Shown here in pieces: positions 3 to 63,790 of a stretch of DNA of 64,000 nucleotides. This stretch comes from Planctomycetota bacterium (GTDB lineage: Bacteria; Planctomycetota; B15-G4), in contig BQJR01000002.1 of the NCBI GenBank assembly GCA_021604805.1, positions 62,001-126,000 of the forward strand, given 5' to 3'. The translations under genes and the position numbers were made by a program. Under the pieces are notes generated by a model. That model ran no database searches. It was not told the DNA's origin and saw only the letters and a list, made by a program, of their open reading frames with translations. The first letter of the stretch is position 1. Every line of letters begins with the position of its first letter.

Positions 3-1187
3 CCGCTGCTGACACTCTGGCGCCACGTGCACCCCACGCCCGATGCCGACACGGGTGAGCGCGATGGATGGGATCCGACTCCGGAGATCTCGGTGTACGA
101 GGCGCTCATCGAACACGACCAGGCCGTGGCGATCAGTTGGGTCGAACCCGCAGACGGCGCGCGGCTCGTCGCGCTCGGCCGAGCCGACGTCAACCTCCAC
201 GAGCTGAGTCCCGCGGACGGCCCCACGCCCGTGCACCCCTTCGACGGTAAGCACGCCGACCTCCTCGGCTACAAGCGTGCGCTCGAAGCGATCGGGAAGG
301 ACGCCAGCCGCACGCCCGCGCAGAATCGGGCCGCGCACTTCTGGCTCTCGCTCGATCTCGCCACGTCGCTGGCCGACCCGGAGGAGAACGGCAACGAGGT
401 CGCCGACGCGATCAAGGTCCCGCGGCGGCTCGTCAACGTGGATCCCATGCGACGCAAGTGGCTCACGGAGTTGTTGCAGACCCGCTGGAAAGCGCGCGCG
501 AACTGCGCCGCCGCGGGCGCCCCCTTCGACCTGCTCTTCGGCGGCGTGACCGGCGAGGCCTTCGGGCTCTCGAACGACGTGGCCGACCTCGTGTTCGCGC
601 TGATGCACAACAACTTCGGTGGGAACCTGCGCGATGCGTGGCAGCCGGCGGTCGAGTTCGCCTGTGGGTCGCTGCGTCGACCGGGCGTGGGGCAGCGCCT
701 CAACGTGGAGCCGAACTCCTTCCTCATGGCGTCCTTCGCGGAGGTCATCGACTTTGCTTCCATGAACGCCTTGTCCGGCGAACCGCAGCGCTACGAAGAC
801 CTCACCCTGCTGCGCAAGATCTTCGTGTCGATGATCGAGCCCTTCACCGACAACTACCTCGCGGAGGGCCGTCCGCCCTACATGGAGTTCTACGACTACG
901 GCAACCTGGAAGACGAACCCGGTTCCGTCGCTCGCGGAGCGTGGACCCCCGAGCGCATCACGGCTCACATCGCGCGGGTCGAGGCCTTCACCTACGCGGA
1001 ACTCGCGCAGTACTGGGGCACGCTCCTCGCCAAGGCCCTGGCCGAGGAAACCTGCGTGCAAGACTGCAAGACCTGGGGCGAGCGGCACATGCCTCCGCGC
1101 AGCAAGTCGGACAAGCAAGAAGCCGCACGCCTGGTGCGCCGCGCGCTCCGACCTGACAAAGAAGAGGAAGGCGGGTCCTGCGCCTAA
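3..1187 (+). CDS. Hypothetical protein, 5' end outside window
   Basis: I do not recognise this protein. The reading frame is open to the left edge of the window, and the first possible internal start is a GTG at 27, so the true start is probably upstream. About 394 residues are visible. They look soluble and mildly acidic, with no signal peptide or membrane segment in the visible part, and the tail ends in a basic then acidic stretch with a terminal GGSCA. A Trp/Asn-rich central part (MHNNFGG, DAWQPAVEFACG) may be a conserved core. The TAA stop overlaps the stop of the convergent sigma factor gene. No function is assigned. Confidence 0.75.
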   Translation, partial: PLLTLWRHVHPTPDADTGERDGWDPTPEISVYEALIEHDQAVAISWVEPADGARLVALGRADVNLHELSPADGPTPVHPFDGKHADLLGYKRALEAIGKDASRTPAQNRAAHFWLSLDLATSLADPEENGNEVADAIKVPRRLVNVDPMRRKWLTELLQTRWKARANCAAAGAPFDLLFGGVTGEAFGLSNDVADLVFALMHNNFGGNLRDAWQPAVEFACGSLRRPGVGQRLNVEPNSFLMASFAEVIDFASMNALSGEPQRYEDLTLLRKIFVSMIEPFTDNYLAEGRPPYMEFYDYGNLEDEPGSVARGAWTPERITAHIARVEAFTYAELAQYWGTLLAKALAEETCVQDCKTWGERHMPPRSKSDKQEAARLVRRALRPDKEEEGGSCA

Positions 1188-1741
1188 GCCCGGCCCACTC
1201 CCAGTTCCTTCAGGCGCGTGAACAGCCACGCGCGGATCATCTGCCAGCGACGCTCGAGGGTCCGTTCGGCGATGCCGAGCACTTCGCTGCACTCCTTCAT
1301 CGTGCAGCCGCCGAAGAAGCGCAGCTCCACGAAGCTGCGCATCTGGGCGTCGCGTTGCTCGAGCTCTTCGAGCAGGGTGGCCATGTCGAGCATCTCGATG
1401 GCCTGTTCGTCGAGCTCGACGAGCAGGCCGTCGTCCTCGAGTGAGAGGCGTTCGCCTGGGGCCTTGCGCTTGGCGGCGTTGCGCGCGTGCGCGTGGTCGA
1501 TCAGGATCTGGCACATGGCGCGCGAAGCGGTGGCGAGGTAGTGCCCGCGACTCTTCCACTTGCGCTCGATGCGGTCGAGCTTGATGAACGCCTCGTTGGC
1601 CAGCGCCGTGGCCTGCAGCGTGTGGCCGGGCCGCTCGCCACGCATCCAATGACCCGCGACCTTGCGCAGCTCGGTGTAGAGTTCTTGCGTGAGTTCGTCG
1701 AAGGCCTGGTCGTCGGCCCTGTCGCTGCCCGTGGTCATCAT
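1184..1741 (-). CDS. ECF-like RNA polymerase sigma factor (TIGR02999-type)
   Basis: A 185-residue sigma factor of the ECF-like group common in planctomycetes and relatives. Region 2 holds the family-typical ELYTELRKVAGHWM, then RPGHTLQATALANEAFIKL, and an HYLATASRAMCQILIDHAHARN helix typical of this subfamily. Region 4 carries ELRFFGGCTMKECSEVLGIAERTLERRW, a helix-turn-helix for -35 recognition. I chose the ATG at 1741 because AGGGAG lies just upstream. A longer frame reaches 1945, but it overlaps the neighbouring signalling gene and adds low-complexity Arg/Ser sequence. A TAGAGT box lies at 1792-1797 on the same strand. It follows the two-component operon on the same strand, but no anti-sigma factor is adjacent. 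Its stop overlaps that of the convergent upstream gene. Confidence 0.9.
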   Translation of the reverse strand: MMTTGSDRADDQAFDELTQELYTELRKVAGHWMRGERPGHTLQATALANEAFIKLDRIERKWKSRGHYLATASRAMCQILIDHAHARNAAKRKAPGERLSLEDDGLLVELDEQAIEMLDMATLLEELEQRDAQMRSFVELRFFGGCTMKECSEVLGIAERTLERRWQMIRAWLFTRLKELGVGRA

Positions 1742-1838: not shown

Positions 1839-2945
1839 TCACGTCGCCGACGGTTGAGTTCGCTGAGACTCGAGCGCGGTCGGGGTTCCGAGCGACACGT
1901 GGAGCGTGGCCGACTGGCCTTCGGCGACGAGCCGCACGTCGCCACCGAAGGCGCGCATGATCTCGCGCCCCACAGCCAGGTTCATGTCGCCGCCCGTGAC
2001 GCGATCGCCTTCCTTCACAGGCGCGAGCGCTGCGAAGGGATCCGCGTCGGCGTCGAACGCGGACGCGTCCACGAGATCACAGTGCAGACGGAGCTGCGGA
2101 ACGGACTCGCCCGCCTCGCCCTCCACCGCGACGCTCGCACCGCGCTTCGCGTAGCGCACCAAGCCGTCGATCAGAGAGCCCAGCCCGTGGAACAACAGGT
2201 CGCGGTCGAGCCGCATCGGCTGCGGGTCGCCGCTGAACTCGCCGTAGAGCACCACCCCCTTCGACGCGGCGGCTTCGGCACAGCTCAACACGGCCTCCTG
2301 CACGGCGTCGGCGGGATTCACGCTGCTGAGTTCGAGAGGCAAGCCACCGCTGCGGAGTTGGCACCACAGCAAGCTGCGGTCGGCCAAGTGCGCGAGGCTC
2401 GCGGCGCTGCTGCGGATCAAGCGGCAGTAGTCTTGGCGCTCGTCTTCACTCAACTCCGTGCCGCTCACGAGCATCTCGGCGATGGGCAGCAGTCCGTTGA
2501 GCGGCGTGCGGATCTCGTGTGAGAGCAAGGTGAGCATCGCGCTCTTGGATTCATCGAGGTCTTCTGCGACTTGCAGGCGATGGAACACCTTCACCTTCGC
2601 GAGGAGCTCCTGGCTGTCGAAGGGTTTGGTCACGTAGTCGTCGGCGCCGGCCGCGTAGCCTTCGAGGCGCTCGCTGGTCATCGCCTTCGCCGAGAGCAAG
2701 ATGATCTTGAGGTGCGCGAGCTGAGGCATGCTGCGGATGCGACGACAGGTCTCGTAGCCGTCGAGGCCCGGCATCATGATGTCGAGCAACACGATGTCGA
2801 CCTCGTGCTCGGCGAGCCACTCGAGCGCAGCGCCACCTGAGTCCACGCTGTGGAAGACGCAGGATTCCCCCAAGGACTCCTCGATGATCTCGAGGTTCAC
2901 GGGGTTGTCGTCCACTCCCAACACACGGCAGGTGGAAACGGTCAT
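1839..2945 (-). CDS. Response-regulator receiver / HisKA hybrid with degenerate ATPase domain
   Basis: A 368-residue signalling protein. Residues 1-120 form a receiver domain with the acidic pair D12/D13, phosphoacceptor D55 (LLDIMMPG) and K107 (TKPF). A HisKA dimerisation helix follows with H143 in LSHEIRTPLN. The C-terminal part should be a HATPase_c domain but is eroded: the N-box lacks its Asn (LGSLIDGLVRYAKRG), no G1 DxGxG is visible, and the G2 region reads GGDMNLAVGREI instead of GTGLGLAI. I therefore infer it accepts phosphate but may not make it. GGAG lies seven bases before the ATG. The start overlaps the stop of the upstream membrane kinase gene by four bases, so the two are translationally coupled and probably form a phosphorelay. 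Confidence 0.85.
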   Translation of the reverse strand: MTVSTCRVLGVDDNPVNLEIIEESLGESCVFHSVDSGGAALEWLAEHEVDIVLLDIMMPGLDGYETCRRIRSMPQLAHLKIILLSAKAMTSERLEGYAAGADDYVTKPFDSQELLAKVKVFHRLQVAEDLDESKSAMLTLLSHEIRTPLNGLLPIAEMLVSGTELSEDERQDYCRLIRSSAASLAHLADRSLLWCQLRSGGLPLELSSVNPADAVQEAVLSCAEAAASKGVVLYGEFSGDPQPMRLDRDLLFHGLGSLIDGLVRYAKRGASVAVEGEAGESVPQLRLHCDLVDASAFDADADPFAALAPVKEGDRVTGGDMNLAVGREIMRAFGGDVRLVAEGQSATLHVSLGTPTALESQRTQPSAT

Positions 2946-4312
2946 CGGGGTTCTCCGTGCGAAGCCGCGGGCATGTGCGGCGCTTCGGTCATGACGGACG
3001 CGGTTGCTGGTTCAGGTGCCGAGGCGGGTTGCAACGGGATCTCGAACACGACGCGCGTCCCGCTCTGCCCGCTGCGGTTCTCGGCCCAGATGCGCCCGCG
3101 GTGCGCCTCCACGATCTGACGTGAGATCGCGAGGCCCAGGCCGGTGCCGCCTGCGCCGCTCTTGCGCGAGCTCATCGCGAAGCGCTCGAACACGCTGTCG
3201 AGCTCGGCCTCGGGGATGCCGATCCCTTGGTCCTCCACACTGACACGGAAGGCGGCCTCGTCGGACTCGATCGCGACAAGGATCGTGGTGCCTTCGGGGG
3301 AGTACTTCACGGCATTGGAGATCAGGTTGCGCACGACCTGTCGCACGCGCTTGGAGTCGATCGTGGCGAGCACCGGGTCGGCGCCCGCGAACTCGAGGTC
3401 CATCGCCTGCTGGCTGAGAAGGCTCTCGAAGTCGTCCACGACCGAACCGACCAGCGCTGTCGCGTCCACGCGCGCCGGCACGACCAGGAAGTCACCCGAC
3501 GCCATCGCCGCGCAGTCGAGCAGCTCGTCGACGATGCTCAGCATCTGCGCCCCGCTCTGCCCGATGCGATCGAAGTAGTGCTCCAGCTTCTCGCGATCCG
3601 CGTCACTCGCGCGCTGTTTGCCGAAGTCGGCGAAGCTCATCACGCCGTGCATCGGCGTGCGCAATTCATGGGACATGTTCGCGAGGAACACGTCCTTGGC
3701 ATTGCTCGCGGCTTCGGCGCGCTCCTTCGCCTGCTGCAGCTCGGCGGTGCGCAAGCGCACTTCCTCGCGCAACCTCTCGGGGCCTTGCAGCGACAGGATC
3801 AACGGCGTCACCTTGTACAGCGCGATCACCGTGCCGATGGAGACCAGGGCAGTGAAGGCCTTCGAGAGCCCGAGCAGGCGGTAGGCGGGCCACCAGAACA
3901 TCGTGGCGTCGAGCGCGTGTCCGATCCCGCACGCGACGATGAACGCCACGAACAGAAGGATGAGCCCGGAGAACGGCACGTCTCTGCGTTTGCGCACCAC
4001 GGCGGCGAGCAAGAAGGGGATCATCGTGTACGCGAGCCAGATCACGGCGTCGCTCACGATGTGGAGCCAGCCGAGCGGGGCCGGCCAGGTGCCGCAGTTC
4101 CAGCGCGCCGGGAAGCCCTCCGTGCTGAGCAGGCTGGCTGTCGACGGTGTCGTGCCGAGCTCACAGCCCATGCCCGGTTCACAGTTGGCGGCGTGGGTGC
4201 TGGCCATCGTGCTCGTGGCCGACCAGCTCGCGAGTGTGAGAGCCGCCACGGCTCCCAGCCCCACCAGGACCCAGGTCCGGCGCGAGTGGGTCGATTCAGA
4301 GTTCGAAGACAT
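2942..4312 (-). CDS. Membrane histidine kinase with ethylene-receptor-like sensor domain
   Basis: A 456-residue kinase. An N-terminal membrane segment and a short Cys-containing loop are followed by three membrane helices that match the ethylene-receptor (ETR1) sensor pattern: SDAVIWLAY with D88, then FIVACGIGH with C128 and H132, then KAFTALVS. In plant ETR1 the corresponding Cys and His bind the copper cofactor. A short coiled coil leads to HisKA (MSHELRTPMHG, H215) and a complete HATPase domain (NLISNAVKYSPEG, EDQGIGIP, GGTGLGLAISRQI). The ATG at 4312 is preceded by GGGGGAG at seven bases. An alternative ATG at 4354 lacks such a site. The gene overlaps the downstream REC-HisKA gene. The ligand is inferred by family resemblance only. 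Confidence 0.85.
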   Translation of the reverse strand: MSSNSESTHSRRTWVLVGLGAVAALTLASWSATSTMASTHAANCEPGMGCELGTTPSTASLLSTEGFPARWNCGTWPAPLGWLHIVSDAVIWLAYTMIPFLLAAVVRKRRDVPFSGLILLFVAFIVACGIGHALDATMFWWPAYRLLGLSKAFTALVSIGTVIALYKVTPLILSLQGPERLREEVRLRTAELQQAKERAEAASNAKDVFLANMSHELRTPMHGVMSFADFGKQRASDADREKLEHYFDRIGQSGAQMLSIVDELLDCAAMASGDFLVVPARVDATALVGSVVDDFESLLSQQAMDLEFAGADPVLATIDSKRVRQVVRNLISNAVKYSPEGTTILVAIESDEAAFRVSVEDQGIGIPEAELDSVFERFAMSSRKSGAGGTGLGLAISRQIVEAHRGRIWAENRSGQSGTRVVFEIPLQPASAPEPATASVMTEAPHMPAASHGEPR

Positions 4313-4739
4313 GCACAGACTCCCCCGATGAGTGGAACCCGCGAACGCGGGCAAGCCAGAACTTCGTCAGCGCCTTGCCCCCCACTGAACCGTGCAGCCT
4401 GCAATCCCTGGCCACGACGCTCGAAGCGCCGACCTGCCCGCCACACCAGAGCTACCGGTCGGAGCGCTCGCGACAAAAGCACCTGCGGCGCCGCCGACTC
4501 ACGCGAGCCTGTCCAGGTTTCGGGTTCGCGGGCGAGTCGGGCTGCGCAGCTGGGCGTCGCGTTGCTCGAGTTCTTCGAGCAGCGTGTGGCCGGGCCCGCG
4601 AGAGTTTGTCGCGCGAAGCGCCTCGGCCCGGAAAATCTCGCGTACCGTGGCTGCGAGCGGCGGAGCCATCCGCTGCGTCACGGCCCTCGGCGCTGCTCGG
4701 GCAGAGCAACCAGGCCGCAACGCCAACGGGAGTCTCAGC
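4313..4739. other. Gene-free stretch between divergent kinase operon and FG-GAP pseudogene
   Basis: This stretch of about 430 bases has no convincing intact gene. It separates the leftward kinase operon from the rightward FG-GAP pseudogene and contains the 56-base sigma-gene relic at 4541-4596. A TACCGT hexamer at 4643-4648 resembles the -10 boxes seen elsewhere in the window and could have served the FG-GAP gene. Nothing else recognisable was seen. Confidence 0.5.
4541..4596 (-). pseudogene. Relic of an ECF-like sigma factor gene
   Basis: About 45 bases from 4541 match the intact sigma gene at 1334-1380 with only a few differences. They are followed directly by an 18-base match (4579-4596) to positions 1615-1632 of the same gene. 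Translated on the minus strand, the join reads GPGHT followed by LLEELEQRDAQLRS. The intact factor has RPGHT and LLEELEQRDAQMRS separated by about 80 residues. It therefore looks like an old paralogue reduced by an internal deletion between short repeats, with both flanks lost. No start, stop or helix-turn-helix remains. Confidence 0.6.
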
Positions 4740-6211
4740 ATGGCAAGACCGTCCAAGGGAATCGCTGCGTCCTGCGCGATCGCCGCGCTCTGGCTCGCGA
4801 CGGCGAGCGCCGCGCAAGACATGCAAGTGGGCAGGCGCTTGCCCGAGTTGCGTCCGGTCGCGAACCCCACGGTCAAAGACATGACCGCTCTCGAGCAGGC
4901 CTTGCGCGCTCAACCGGCGGCAGTCAGTGCTCTCTCGGGCGGCGCTTCACTCGCGGGACTGTTCGGCGGGAGCGAAGGCAGCTTCGACAACTTCGGTCGC
5001 CTCGTGGACGTACACGGGTCGAAGATCATCGTGGCCGACGACAACGACGCGTACGTGTTCAACACGGACACCCTGAGCTTCGAGTCGGGCGGACTCCTGG
5101 CGGACTCTGGCTTCCCTGCCGCCAGCGTTCACGACGTGGCCATCTTCGATGACCAAGTCATGATCACGTTCTACTCTTCCACGTTCACCACGCAGGCCGT
5201 GGCGACCAAGACCTTCGACGGTCTGGATTAGGTCCACACGATCGCCGTCATGTTGCCTGCTGGCATGGACCCGCAGGTCGAACTCGACAACACCCTGTCC
5301 CACATCATGTCGGCCTCGCTCAACATCCCGGGCAACTCCACTGTGTTCGGGATGTACGCCGAAACCGCGATCATCACGGTCGGGATCCTTGAGTACACAG
5401 AGATGGGTGTCGAGCTGGCGCTTGGTCGCACCCACCCATCGGGAGCCGTGGGCCAGCCCTTTTCCCGCGATCTGCTAGCGTGTTTCGAAGCGGGCGTAGC
5501 TCGCGACGTGCACCACTTGCGCAGTTGGTCGACCTTGACGGACCTCGGGAACTTGGCCTCGGGCACCACCGCTGAACGCTTCGGCGACGCGATGGCGATC
5601 GATGACGGCGCCGCGTGGATCGGCGCACCCGACTCCGATGATGCCGCGCTCGACGGCGGTGTCGTGTTCAACTTCGTGAACTCTGGTGCGGGCAGCTTGG
5701 TCTTCGACGGCAGCTTCGCGTCGGATGAACCGGGCGATCACTTCGGCCGCGCGATCGCGACCTACGGCGACATCGCCGTGATCTCCGAGCGCAACGCCGA
5801 CCTCGTGAGCGGCGGCAGCGGCGTGGGCGCTGTGCGCGTGGCGCGTCGCACAGCGGGCTCGCGCCGCCCTTGCCGAACGACGCCATCACCGGCCCGCTCG
5901 GTTTCCCCATCGGCAGCACACTCCCCGGCGCGCCCATCGGGATTCGAGTGAGCGGCGCGAAGCCGTCGTCGCCCGGATTCATGGTGCTCGGGTTGGGCCA
6001 ACTCAACTTGCCGTTCAAAGCCGGCGTGATGTTGCCGACGCTCGACCTCGTGAAGATGTTGCCGACGAACGCGAGCGGTGAGCTCAGTCTCAACACCGCG
6101 TGGCCGGCCGGCAGCCCGGCCTTCACGATGTACATGCAGTACTGGATCAGTGATGCCGCCGGGCCCTCGGGTTTCAAGGCGACCCAAGGCTGGAGCGTGC
6201 GGCAAGACTAA
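4740..6211 (+). pseudogene. FG-GAP repeat exported protein, broken by a stop and a frameshift
   Basis: The gene starts at ATG 4740 after GGGAG with a clear signal peptide (MARPSKGIAAS...ATASAAQ). The frame stops at an in-frame TAG at 5229-5231 but continues at once in the same frame to about 5840 with FG-GAP-like repeats (FGDAMAIDDGAAWIGAP, FGRAIATYGDIAVIS). Between about 5840 and 5870 the frame changes, and the C-terminal beta domain (PIGIRVSG, QYWISDAAGPSGF, QGWSVRQD) is encoded in another frame up to 6211. The intact homologue at 55788-57386 ends in a comparable domain. One nonsense change plus a frameshift, probably with loss of some repeats, make this a pseudogene unless the sequence contains errors. 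Confidence 0.75.
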
Positions 6212-61305: not shown

Positions 61306-63060
61306 TCACGCGCTCGGAAGGCGCAACCGGAAGCACGAGCCGGCTCCGGTTGCCGACTCGATCGACACCTCGCCGCCGTGCGCGCGCGCCACGTTGCGCA
61401 CGATCGAGAGACCCAGACCGGTGCCGCCCAGCGCGCGCGAACGATCTTTGTCCACGCGGTAGAAGCGCTCGAAGATGCGCTCTTGCTCGTGGCGCGCGAT
61501 GCCCGGCCCTTCGTCGCGGACGGCGAGACAGTGTTGTGCGCCGTCGCTCGTGAGCGTGAGGTCCACCGGGTGTCCGGGCGGCGAGTACTTCACCGCGTTG
61601 CTCAACAAGTTGTCGATCGCAGTGGCCAGCGCCTTGCGATCCCCCGACACGCGCAGCGGCCCTTCGGCGGGATGCAAGCGCACCTCGACCCCATGATGTT
61701 CCGCATCCGACGCAGCACGACGCGCACACTCCGAAGCGAGCGCGCCGAGTTCCACGGACTCGTGATCCACCGGACGCGTGCCCGACTCGATGCGCGCCAA
61801 GTCGAGCAAGTCGCTCACGATGTCGGTGAGCCGCTCCGTGTTCTGCGAGGCCTTCTTGAGGAAGCGCACGCGTTGCGCGTGCGGCATGTCGGCGTCCTCG
61901 ATCACGGCTTCCACGTAACCGCGCATCGAAGTGAGCGGCGTCTTCAACTCGTGCGACACGTTGGCCACGAAGTCGGTGCGCACCTTCTCGAGGCGACGGA
62001 TCTCCGTGAGGTCGCGCAGCACGAGCACGGCCACACGCGGCCCCTTGCCCGAGGCCGCCGGATTCGCGGAGAGCCCCACCACGCGTTCACCCAGGCCCGG
62101 CACGTCGAGGCTGAACTCGTCTTCTACGCGTTCGTTGCGCACCGCGGCGCGCACGCCCGCCAGGATCTCAGGCACGCGCGTGATCTCGGCCAGACGTTTG
62201 TTCACCGGGTCGCCGCGAGGGTCGATCAACCAACGACGCGCCGCGCGGTTCGCGAGCACCACGCGCTGTTCGTCGTCGACGGCGAGCACCCCCTCCTCCA
62301 TCGCCGAGAGCACGGCTTCCTTCTGCGTGACCTCTTCGAGCAACACCGCTTGTCGCCGCTGCAACTGCGCAGCCATGTCGTTGACGGCGGCGGCCAGGTT
62401 GCCGATCTCGTCGTTGCTCTCCACAGGCAAGCGCGCCGTGGATTCCCCGCGACCGAGCGCCGAGAGCAGTTCACTGATGCGACCGAGCGGCCCCGAAACA
62501 CGTCGCGCCAAGATCAAAGACAGCACCAAGCCCGCGAGCAGCGCCACCAGCGCGCCGGTGCGGATGGCCTTGCCCAAACTGGCGAGGTCGTCGTCGATGC
62601 CGCGTACGGGGAGCGCGATGCGCGCGTAGCCGATGTGCTGGCCGTCGGAGCCGATCACACGCTCGGCGGCGTAGCGCATCAGCGTGTCGAGCGTGCTGCT
62701 GCGACGCTCGTGGATCGTGCCGGGCTGCTCGACCTCGGCGCGGTGCGCGTGGTTCGCCATGCGCGCGACCTGCTCGTGCGAGTCGGCCAACACCGAGCCG
62801 TCGGCGGCGAGCAGCGTGATGCGGCGCGCGAGGTGACGACCCGCGGCTGCGTCGGCCAGCATCTGCAAGCGCGGCCGGTCTCCAGCTTCGATCACGGGCG
62901 CGACCGCGAGCGCCATCCCGAAGGAGTCGTCGAGCAACTGCTGATCGATCTGCGCGATGCGGCGTTCCTTGAGGTTCCTCGCCGCGAGCCCCTCCACCAA
63001 CAGCGTGGTGGTGACGACGACCAAGATCGCGCCCAGGAAGATCTTCCACGCGAAACGCAT
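61306..63060 (-). CDS. phoR: Phosphate-regulon-type sensor histidine kinase PhoR
   Basis: A 584-residue membrane kinase. Two membrane helices (residues 5-25 and about 168-190) enclose a periplasmic sensor of about 140 residues. HAMP (RRVSGPLGRISELLSALGRGEST), then a PAS-like domain (VLSAMEEGVLAVDDEQRVVLAN), HisKA (VANVSHELKTPLTSMRGYVE) and a complete HATPase (NLLSNAVKYSPPG, VRDEGPGIA, GGTGLGLSIVRNV) follow. The periplasmic domain is larger than in E. coli PhoR and resembles that of Gram-positive PhoR. The phosphate role is inferred from its place between phoB and phoU. Confidence 0.88.
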   Translation of the reverse strand: MRFAWKIFLGAILVVVTTTLLVEGLAARNLKERRIAQIDQQLLDDSFGMALAVAPVIEAGDRPRLQMLADAAAGRHLARRITLLAADGSVLADSHEQVARMANHAHRAEVEQPGTIHERRSSTLDTLMRYAAERVIGSDGQHIGYARIALPVRGIDDDLASLGKAIRTGALVALLAGLVLSLILARRVSGPLGRISELLSALGRGESTARLPVESNDEIGNLAAAVNDMAAQLQRRQAVLLEEVTQKEAVLSAMEEGVLAVDDEQRVVLANRAARRWLIDPRGDPVNKRLAEITRVPEILAGVRAAVRNERVEDEFSLDVPGLGERVVGLSANPAASGKGPRVAVLVLRDLTEIRRLEKVRTDFVANVSHELKTPLTSMRGYVEAVIEDADMPHAQRVRFLKKASQNTERLTDIVSDLLDLARIESGTRPVDHESVELGALASECARRAASDAEHHGVEVRLHPAEGPLRVSGDRKALATAIDNLLSNAVKYSPPGHPVDLTLTSDGAQHCLAVRDEGPGIARHEQERIFERFYRVDKDRSRALGGTGLGLSIVRNVARAHGGEVSIESATGAGSCFRLRLPSA

Positions 63061-63091
63061 CGCGCCTCTCGAGTTGGTGACCGCGCGCGGC

Positions 63092-63790
63092 TCAGCCGGT
63101 CGCTTCAGAGAAACGATAACCGATGCCGCGGACCGTCTCGATCAGGTCGCGATGTTCACCGAGCTTCTTGCGGATCGCGCGGATGTGCACGTCCACGCTG
63201 CGGTCGGTGACGATCGTGTTGGGTCCCAACGCGAAGGACAAGATCTGCTCGCGCTCGAACACGCGCCCGGGGCGCGCGGCCAGGAAGTGCAGGATGCGGA
63301 ACTCGGTGGCCGTGAGCGGGATCTCTTCCTCGGCCACGCTCACCTTGTGACGCGTGGGGTCGACCTCGAGCAAGCCGCGCGCCACCACGCGCTTCTCGTC
63401 GGTGGCGGCATCGAGCACCGAGCGACGCATCACGGCCTTCACGCGCGCCGCGACTTCCTTCGGGCTGAAGGGCTTGGGCACGTAGTCGTCGGCGCCCATG
63501 CCGAGGCCGAGGACCACGTCGGCCTCCTCGCCCTTGGCCGTGACCATGATGATCGGGATGCCGCGCGTGGCGTCGTCTTGCTTGAGCCGACGACAGATCT
63601 CCAGGCCGTCGAGGCCCGGCAGCATCAAGTCGAGCAAGATCAGGTCCGGCACCTTGCGACGGATGCGCGCGAGAGCCGACACGCCTTCGGGAGCAGATTC
63701 GACCTCGTAGCCTTCGCGCTCGAGGGAGTACTCGAGGAGTTCGCGGATGTCCGCTTCGTCCTCGACGATGAAGATCTTTTGTTTGGCCAT
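63092..63790 (-). CDS. phoB: OmpR/PhoB-family response regulator PhoB
   Basis: A 232-residue regulator. The receiver domain has EDEAD at the start, phosphoacceptor Asp in LILLDLMLPGLDG, Thr in MVTAKGEEADV and Lys in VPKPFSP. The C-terminal winged helix (LTATEFRILHFLAARPGRVFEREQIL, TDRSVDVHIRAIRKKLGEHRDLIETVRGIGYRF) is of the OmpR/PhoB type. It is the first gene of a phoB-phoR-phoU set, with 31 bases before phoR. I did not find a clear Pho box or ribosome-binding site upstream. Confidence 0.92.
   Translation of the reverse strand: MAKQKIFIVEDEADIRELLEYSLEREGYEVESAPEGVSALARIRRKVPDLILLDLMLPGLDGLEICRRLKQDDATRGIPIIMVTAKGEEADVVLGLGMGADDYVPKPFSPKEVAARVKAVMRRSVLDAATDEKRVVARGLLEVDPTRHKVSVAEEEIPLTATEFRILHFLAARPGRVFEREQILSFALGPNTIVTDRSVDVHIRAIRKKLGEHRDLIETVRGIGYRFSEATG

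Follow-up and report, generated by a model that had tools for sequence, protein, structure and literature searches.

A putative ethylene-receptor-like two-component system with a phosphotransfer-like partner in a planctomycete bacterium

Introduction

Does a histidine kinase gene of a planctomycete encode a sensor of the ethylene-receptor type, and to which partner would such a sensor signal? The question is raised by a locus in a stretch of 64,000 nucleotides (GCA_021604805.1, contig BQJR01000002.1, positions 62,001 to 126,000; hereafter the window), where a sequence-only reading had recognised a histidine kinase with an ethylene-receptor-like three-helix sensor. Planctomycete affiliation of the window is consistent with two PSD1 (PF07587) genes and a TIGR02999 sigma factor.

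Bacterial ethylene receptors outside the cyanobacteria have already been published (PMC11819568; PMC7700396), and AzoEtr1 of Azospirillum brasilense was reported to bind 14C-ethylene; the stop of its kinase gene is overlapped by the start of a response-regulator gene (PMC11819568). The importance of seven residues for ethylene binding as well as the roles of C65, H69, D25 and K91 in AtETR1 have been described (PMC11819568; PMC6586836). Pseudo-kinase phosphotransferases are likewise an established kind of protein, ChpT being one with a degenerate CA domain (PMC9981736). A search of the open literature for planctomycete ethylene receptors returned nothing relevant.

Results

Kinase architecture and sensor family

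The following features of the window are central to the argument.

2942-4312, minus strand: histidine kinase gene, 456 aa (Pfam, translation, hydropathy)
4214-4270, minus strand: extra N-terminal hydrophobic segment of the kinase, residues 15-33 (hydropathy)
4094-4096, minus strand: Cys73, just N-terminal of sensor helix 1 (Cys in 40 of 45 aligned rows)
3788-4075, minus strand: ETR1_N sensor domain, residues 80-175 (PF25487 and residue alignment)
1839-2945, minus strand: partner gene, 368 aa, with REC 8-119, HisKA 134-192 and a degenerate CA domain (Pfam, motif table, model)
1184-1741, minus strand: ECF sigma factor (TIGR02999/PF07638), about 100 bp downstream of the partner

The kinase frame opens with an ATG at 4312 and closes with a stop at 2942-2944, and an alternative in-frame TTG at 4354 would lengthen the product to 470 aa. 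Its order is hydrophobic segment (15-33), Cys-containing linker, ETR1_N (80-175), coiled coil, HisKA (206-269) and HATPase_c (319-428), with Cys44 and Cys50 preceding the ETR1_N domain. HisKA and HATPase_c are intact, the H, N, G1, F and G2 boxes all being present (Pfam, motif table); H215 is the predicted phosphoacceptor, and the codon composition of the gene is native to the genome. Hydropathy places membrane segments at approximately 88-106, 112-130 and 146-174, in addition to the fourth at 15-33, which was absent from the sequence-only reading and may represent either a signal peptide or a further anchor.

A profile search of the sensor part matched PF25487 (ETR1_N) over positions 2-97 of 97 with E 8.1e-34 and 116 bits against a cut-off of 27. 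ETR1_N was the sole Pfam match in the membrane part and NCBIfam gave kinase-core matches only, so that no unrelated sensor family competes, and membership of the window sensor in the ETR1_N family is practically certain. Together with the intact kinase domains, this match upholds the initial view of the protein as a kinase with an ethylene-receptor-like sensor. The motif order that had been claimed, SDAVIWLAY with D88, FIVACGIGH with C128 and H132, and KAFTALVS with K151, is found as described and lies far beyond chance. Conservation of Asp, Cys and His was also borne out and reaches further than proposed, as all seven residues of the AtETR1 ethylene-binding set (D25, Y32, I35, P36, I62, C65, H69) are kept in the alignment as D88, Y95, I98, P99, I125, C128 and H132, and the helix-3 Lys is retained as K151. 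The alignment comprised AtETR1, AzoEtr1 (L103, A. brasilense Sp 7) and relatives, and its AtETR1 row was cross-checked against AzoEtr1, the residues of which have been described (PMC11819568). Cys73 had not been mentioned before; the N-terminus of AtETR1 contains disulfide-forming cysteines (PMC6586836), and by analogy C73 may have such a role.

Three transmembrane helices with the Cys/His pair on the second are indicated by hydropathy and recur in an AlphaFold2 model of residues 60-205, which is of modest confidence (mean pLDDT 68, pTM 0.40) and was built on three aligned sequences only. In this weak monomer model the three helices run on into the coiled coil, with D88 on helix 1, C128 and H132 (positions 69 and 73 of the modelled fragment) on helix 2 and K151 on helix 3. 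A spacing of four residues within one helix is in itself enough to turn C128 and H132 to the same side. Searches of the PDB by sequence and by fold found no solved structure of an ETR1_N domain.

The overlapping partner gene

The ATG of the partner overlaps the kinase stop as ATGA. A coupled REC-HisKA partner had been described, which holds for REC and HisKA; the description missed a C-terminal ATPase-like domain that lacks catalytic motifs. As read from the sequence, the receiver is intact: it has the acidic pair, the phosphoacceptor Asp (within LLDIMMP) and the expected Ser and Lys. HisKA retains HEIRTPL with its phosphoacceptor His143. The C-terminal region gave no HATPase_c match in Pfam. 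Compared with kinases, it has lost the N-box asparagines (GSLIDGLVRY vs RNLISNAVKY), and neither a G1 box nor a G2 box remains (GGDMNLAVG vs GGTGLGLAI for the latter). The frame is nevertheless open over 368 aa, with a GC3 of 0.86 similar to that of neighbouring genes. A structural model of the partner adopts the DHp-CA fold; its confidence is low near the ATP lid, and its best PDB match is DivL, a non-canonical DHp-CA protein; the kinase-dominated alignment favours this outcome, and the model is counted as consistency only.

A DHp with its phosphoacceptor His followed by a CA without ATP-binding motifs is the pattern of ChpT and Spo0B, and the partner looks like a protein working as these phosphotransferases do, although it is not filed as a member. 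Because the ATP-binding motifs are lost while the phosphoacceptor His is intact, its DHp most plausibly acts as a phosphotransfer station or docking platform; the phosphotransferase assignment proper is tentative, with the odds somewhat against it.

A two-gene module with exchangeable sensors

When the kinase core alone was compared with 118 relatives, five close matches beyond the window were obtained (L112, L113, L121, L122, L123; E below 1e-48), none of which carries ETR1_N. Their sensors are diverse: membrane/HAMP in L112 and L123, PAS in L121 and none recognised in L113 and L122. A homologous REC protein lies directly downstream in four of the five, and in three of these (L112, L113, L123) it is a REC-DHp-CA homologue directly next to the kinase; L121 has no adjacent partner. 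In L122 (L122:4734-6767, genome G011) the gene after the kinase homologue, which it overlaps by ATGA, encodes REC-GGDEF-EAL rather than REC-DHp-CA. The partner used as an independent query also recovered L112 and L113. Used alone in a phylum-wide search, the DHp-CA of the partner drew mainly generic kinases, and the result was set aside. The kinases that belong to other ETR1_N proteins stand further off, reaching at most about 126 bits as compared with 212-216 for L112 and L113.

As the kinase core and REC partner recur in the phylum with different sensors, ETR1_N was probably grafted onto a resident kinase/receiver module. All three REC-DHp-CA homologues have an altered first N-box Asn and G2 box and keep part of the CA motifs (G1 and one N-box Asn); kinase activity may therefore have existed in the family in the past or may persist in it. 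Judged by these motifs, CA decay is a trend of the partner family and furthest advanced in the window. Related layouts among ETR1_N proteins of the phylum are the fused ETR-HK-REC-HK of L100 and L101 and, in L086, an ETR-HK-REC adjoining a REC-HK.

Neighbouring genes

The ECF sigma gene is a possible third gene of the transcript; no sigma-factor match was present beside the other ETR1_N loci scanned. Upstream of the kinase, a segment at 4541-4596 repeats parts of this gene (46 bp at 93% from 1334-1379 and 18 bp at 100% from 1615-1632) and looks like what is left of a sigma-factor copy after an internal deletion. The divergent upstream gene (4392-6211, plus strand) is apparently split over successive frames, with ORFs ending at 5231, 5951 and 6211, and is possibly a frameshifted gene for a secreted repeat protein. 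The convergent neighbour at 27-1187 (plus strand) belongs in the wider locus (L106:9368-11185) to a 606-residue frame with no Pfam matches. Another histidine kinase/receiver pair is located at the far end of the window (61306-63790, minus strand).

Distribution and phylogeny of the sensor

Profile searches detected ETR1_N in 3 of 58 relatives, close and distant ones included, and in 41 of the 392 genomes of a phylum-wide sample. Its presence in a planctomycete had been considered notable: the domain is there, and the implied rarity was overstated. Among the six genomes of its own family, a full match occurred only in the window's own genome (G000) and a weak one in G002, where an orphan 145-residue ETR1_N-like frame without kinase (L085:6014-6451), with the key Asp changed to Gly and Ile residues changed, is perhaps a decayed or repurposed copy. 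Plasmid records bearing ETR1_N include Azospirillum, cyanobacteria, Rhizobium and Novosphingobium, and the viral contigs searched held no virus-borne copy. Kinase-only matches diluted a scan of genome contigs made with the full kinase as query, in which ETR1_N was present only in L035 and L036 (Bacteroidota).

Further ETR1_N proteins differ in layout. The window's own genome holds a second one on contig 3 at about 839 kb (L083:5633-7726), a 698-aa ETR1_N-PAS-GGDEF-EAL protein with all seven binding residues kept and Leu in place of the pre-helix Cys. This paralogue and the partner in L122 offer hints of a cyclic-di-GMP output of the sensor family here, which is no evidence for the window pair. 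In L098 (L098:3544-6966) ETR1_N lies at residue 633 of a 1141-residue frame that is probably overlong, and in L124 (L124:604-1368, genome G047) a 254-residue frame consists of ETR1_N and a coiled coil without kinase; G047 also has a homologue of the window module without ETR1_N.

A tree of 45 ETR1_N domains, in which deep branching is tentative because the domain is short, separated two groups. The first (98/89) united AtETR1, cyanobacteria, AzoEtr1 and a few sequences of the window's phylum, the second (97/90) 33 rows including the window, nearly all of the same phylum plus two Bacteroidota.

Discussion

The evidence is best explained by a bacterial ethylene-receptor-like two-component system, to which as a whole we assign a probability of roughly 0.6. 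In such a system the dimeric sensor would hold Cu(I) between C128 and H132, and ethylene or a similar small unsaturated gas would bind the copper and shift helix packing, which would raise or lower autophosphorylation of H215. The phosphoryl group would then pass from H215 to the receiver of the partner, which is very likely the direct target of the kinase; this proposed pairing rests on the overlap of the genes and on conservation. By analogy with ChpT and Spo0B, the partner DHp would serve as phosphotransfer station, or as a platform on which a response regulator from another locus would dock. CopA-type copper ATPases are nearly universal, and the one encoded in this genome could supply copper to the sensor, in a permissive sense only. 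A more far-reaching form of the proposal is a gas-sensing phosphorelay, in which an ethylene-type copper sensor placed on a resident module, within a phylum-dominated ETR1_N clade, would drive a phosphate shuttle through REC, DHp and pseudokinase; this form we consider doubtful.

Among known systems, AzoEtr1/AzoRRetr1 resembles the window system in its ETR1_N domain, where the seven residues and the helix-3 Lys are identical, in its HisKA-type kinase and in its overlapping regulator gene (PMC11819568). However, AzoEtr1 includes a PAS domain and is paired with a 135-aa regulator that consists of REC only, whereas the window kinase is devoid of PAS, is paired with a REC-DHp-degenerate CA protein and possesses the extra N-terminal hydrophobic segment; moreover, the two sensors fall into different clades. 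AtETR1 and SynEtr1 (slr1212) likewise feed a histidine kinase from a three-helix sensor with the Asp/Tyr/Ile/Pro/Ile/Cys/His set, but the window protein lacks a GAF domain and its sensor, with a putative ligand, falls in the other clade, made up mostly of sequences from the window's phylum. Plant subfamily 2 ethylene receptors also bear an additional hydrophobic segment ahead of the three sensor helices, whereas that of the window could be a cleaved signal peptide; an independent origin of the two is likely, because L018 and other close relatives have no such segment. The nearest modules (L112, L113, L123) have kinase cores 39-42% identical over the aligned region and a homologous partner directly downstream, yet carry HAMP/membrane or no recognised sensors in place of ETR1_N and a less decayed partner CA. 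ChpT and Spo0B (PMC9981736) resemble the window partner in combining a DHp with intact His and a functionally degenerate CA, but in the window the DHp is fused to its own receiver, and the likeness is one of motif pattern.

As to the ligand, we lean towards ethylene on the strength of the residue set. The separation of the window clade from that of the tested receptors means that ligand specificity may differ, and it could be assumed that ETR1_N here senses copper(I), oxygen or redox state, or another small gas, the residue set being kept as a metal site. In favour of this are, besides the distinct clade, the occurrence of the domain in many genomes of the phylum, the lack of evidence for ethylene in the habitat and the Cys-rich N-terminus (C44, C50, C73), in which the Cys73 position is nearly always Cys. 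Yet the equivalents of Y32, I35, P36 and I62, which go beyond the copper ligands, are kept in nearly all members, and AzoEtr1 with the identical seven residues binds ethylene (PMC11819568), which leaves a non-ethylene ligand rather improbable. An origin of the sensor by recent horizontal transfer from cyanobacteria would fit its patchy occurrence in its own family, with one full and one weak match among six genomes, but the window sensor is placed in a mostly same-phylum clade and therefore probably is no cyanobacterial import; native codon composition disfavours such a transfer as well, which thus appears very improbable.

The partner could also be an ordinary hybrid-type kinase or a decaying gene, with the kinase signalling via other regulators and the overlap reflecting operon packing. 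Its CA domain is indeed the most decayed of its family, and DHp-CA proteins are so abundant in the phylum that loose matches are common. Against this stand the intact frame with a GC3 like that of its neighbours, the complete REC and H-box motifs and the pairing of kinase and REC-DHp-CA in three other genomes, two of them recovered independently from each side, so that this explanation is considered unlikely.

Conclusions

The window system joins the bacterial ethylene-receptor-like kinases and has an unusual partner. While bacterial receptors with ETR1_N were already known, the two-gene module with exchangeable sensors is newly found, and the sensor swap on this kinase/receiver module shows ETR1_N, as it appears, spreading as a plug-in part. 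In the partner, the idea of a pseudokinase phosphotransfer protein that carries its own receiver can be put to the test. If ethylene is bound, gas-hormone sensing would reach a large bacterial clade outside the group of plants, cyanobacteria and Azospirillum, and ethylene would become a serious candidate for a signal in these bacteria.
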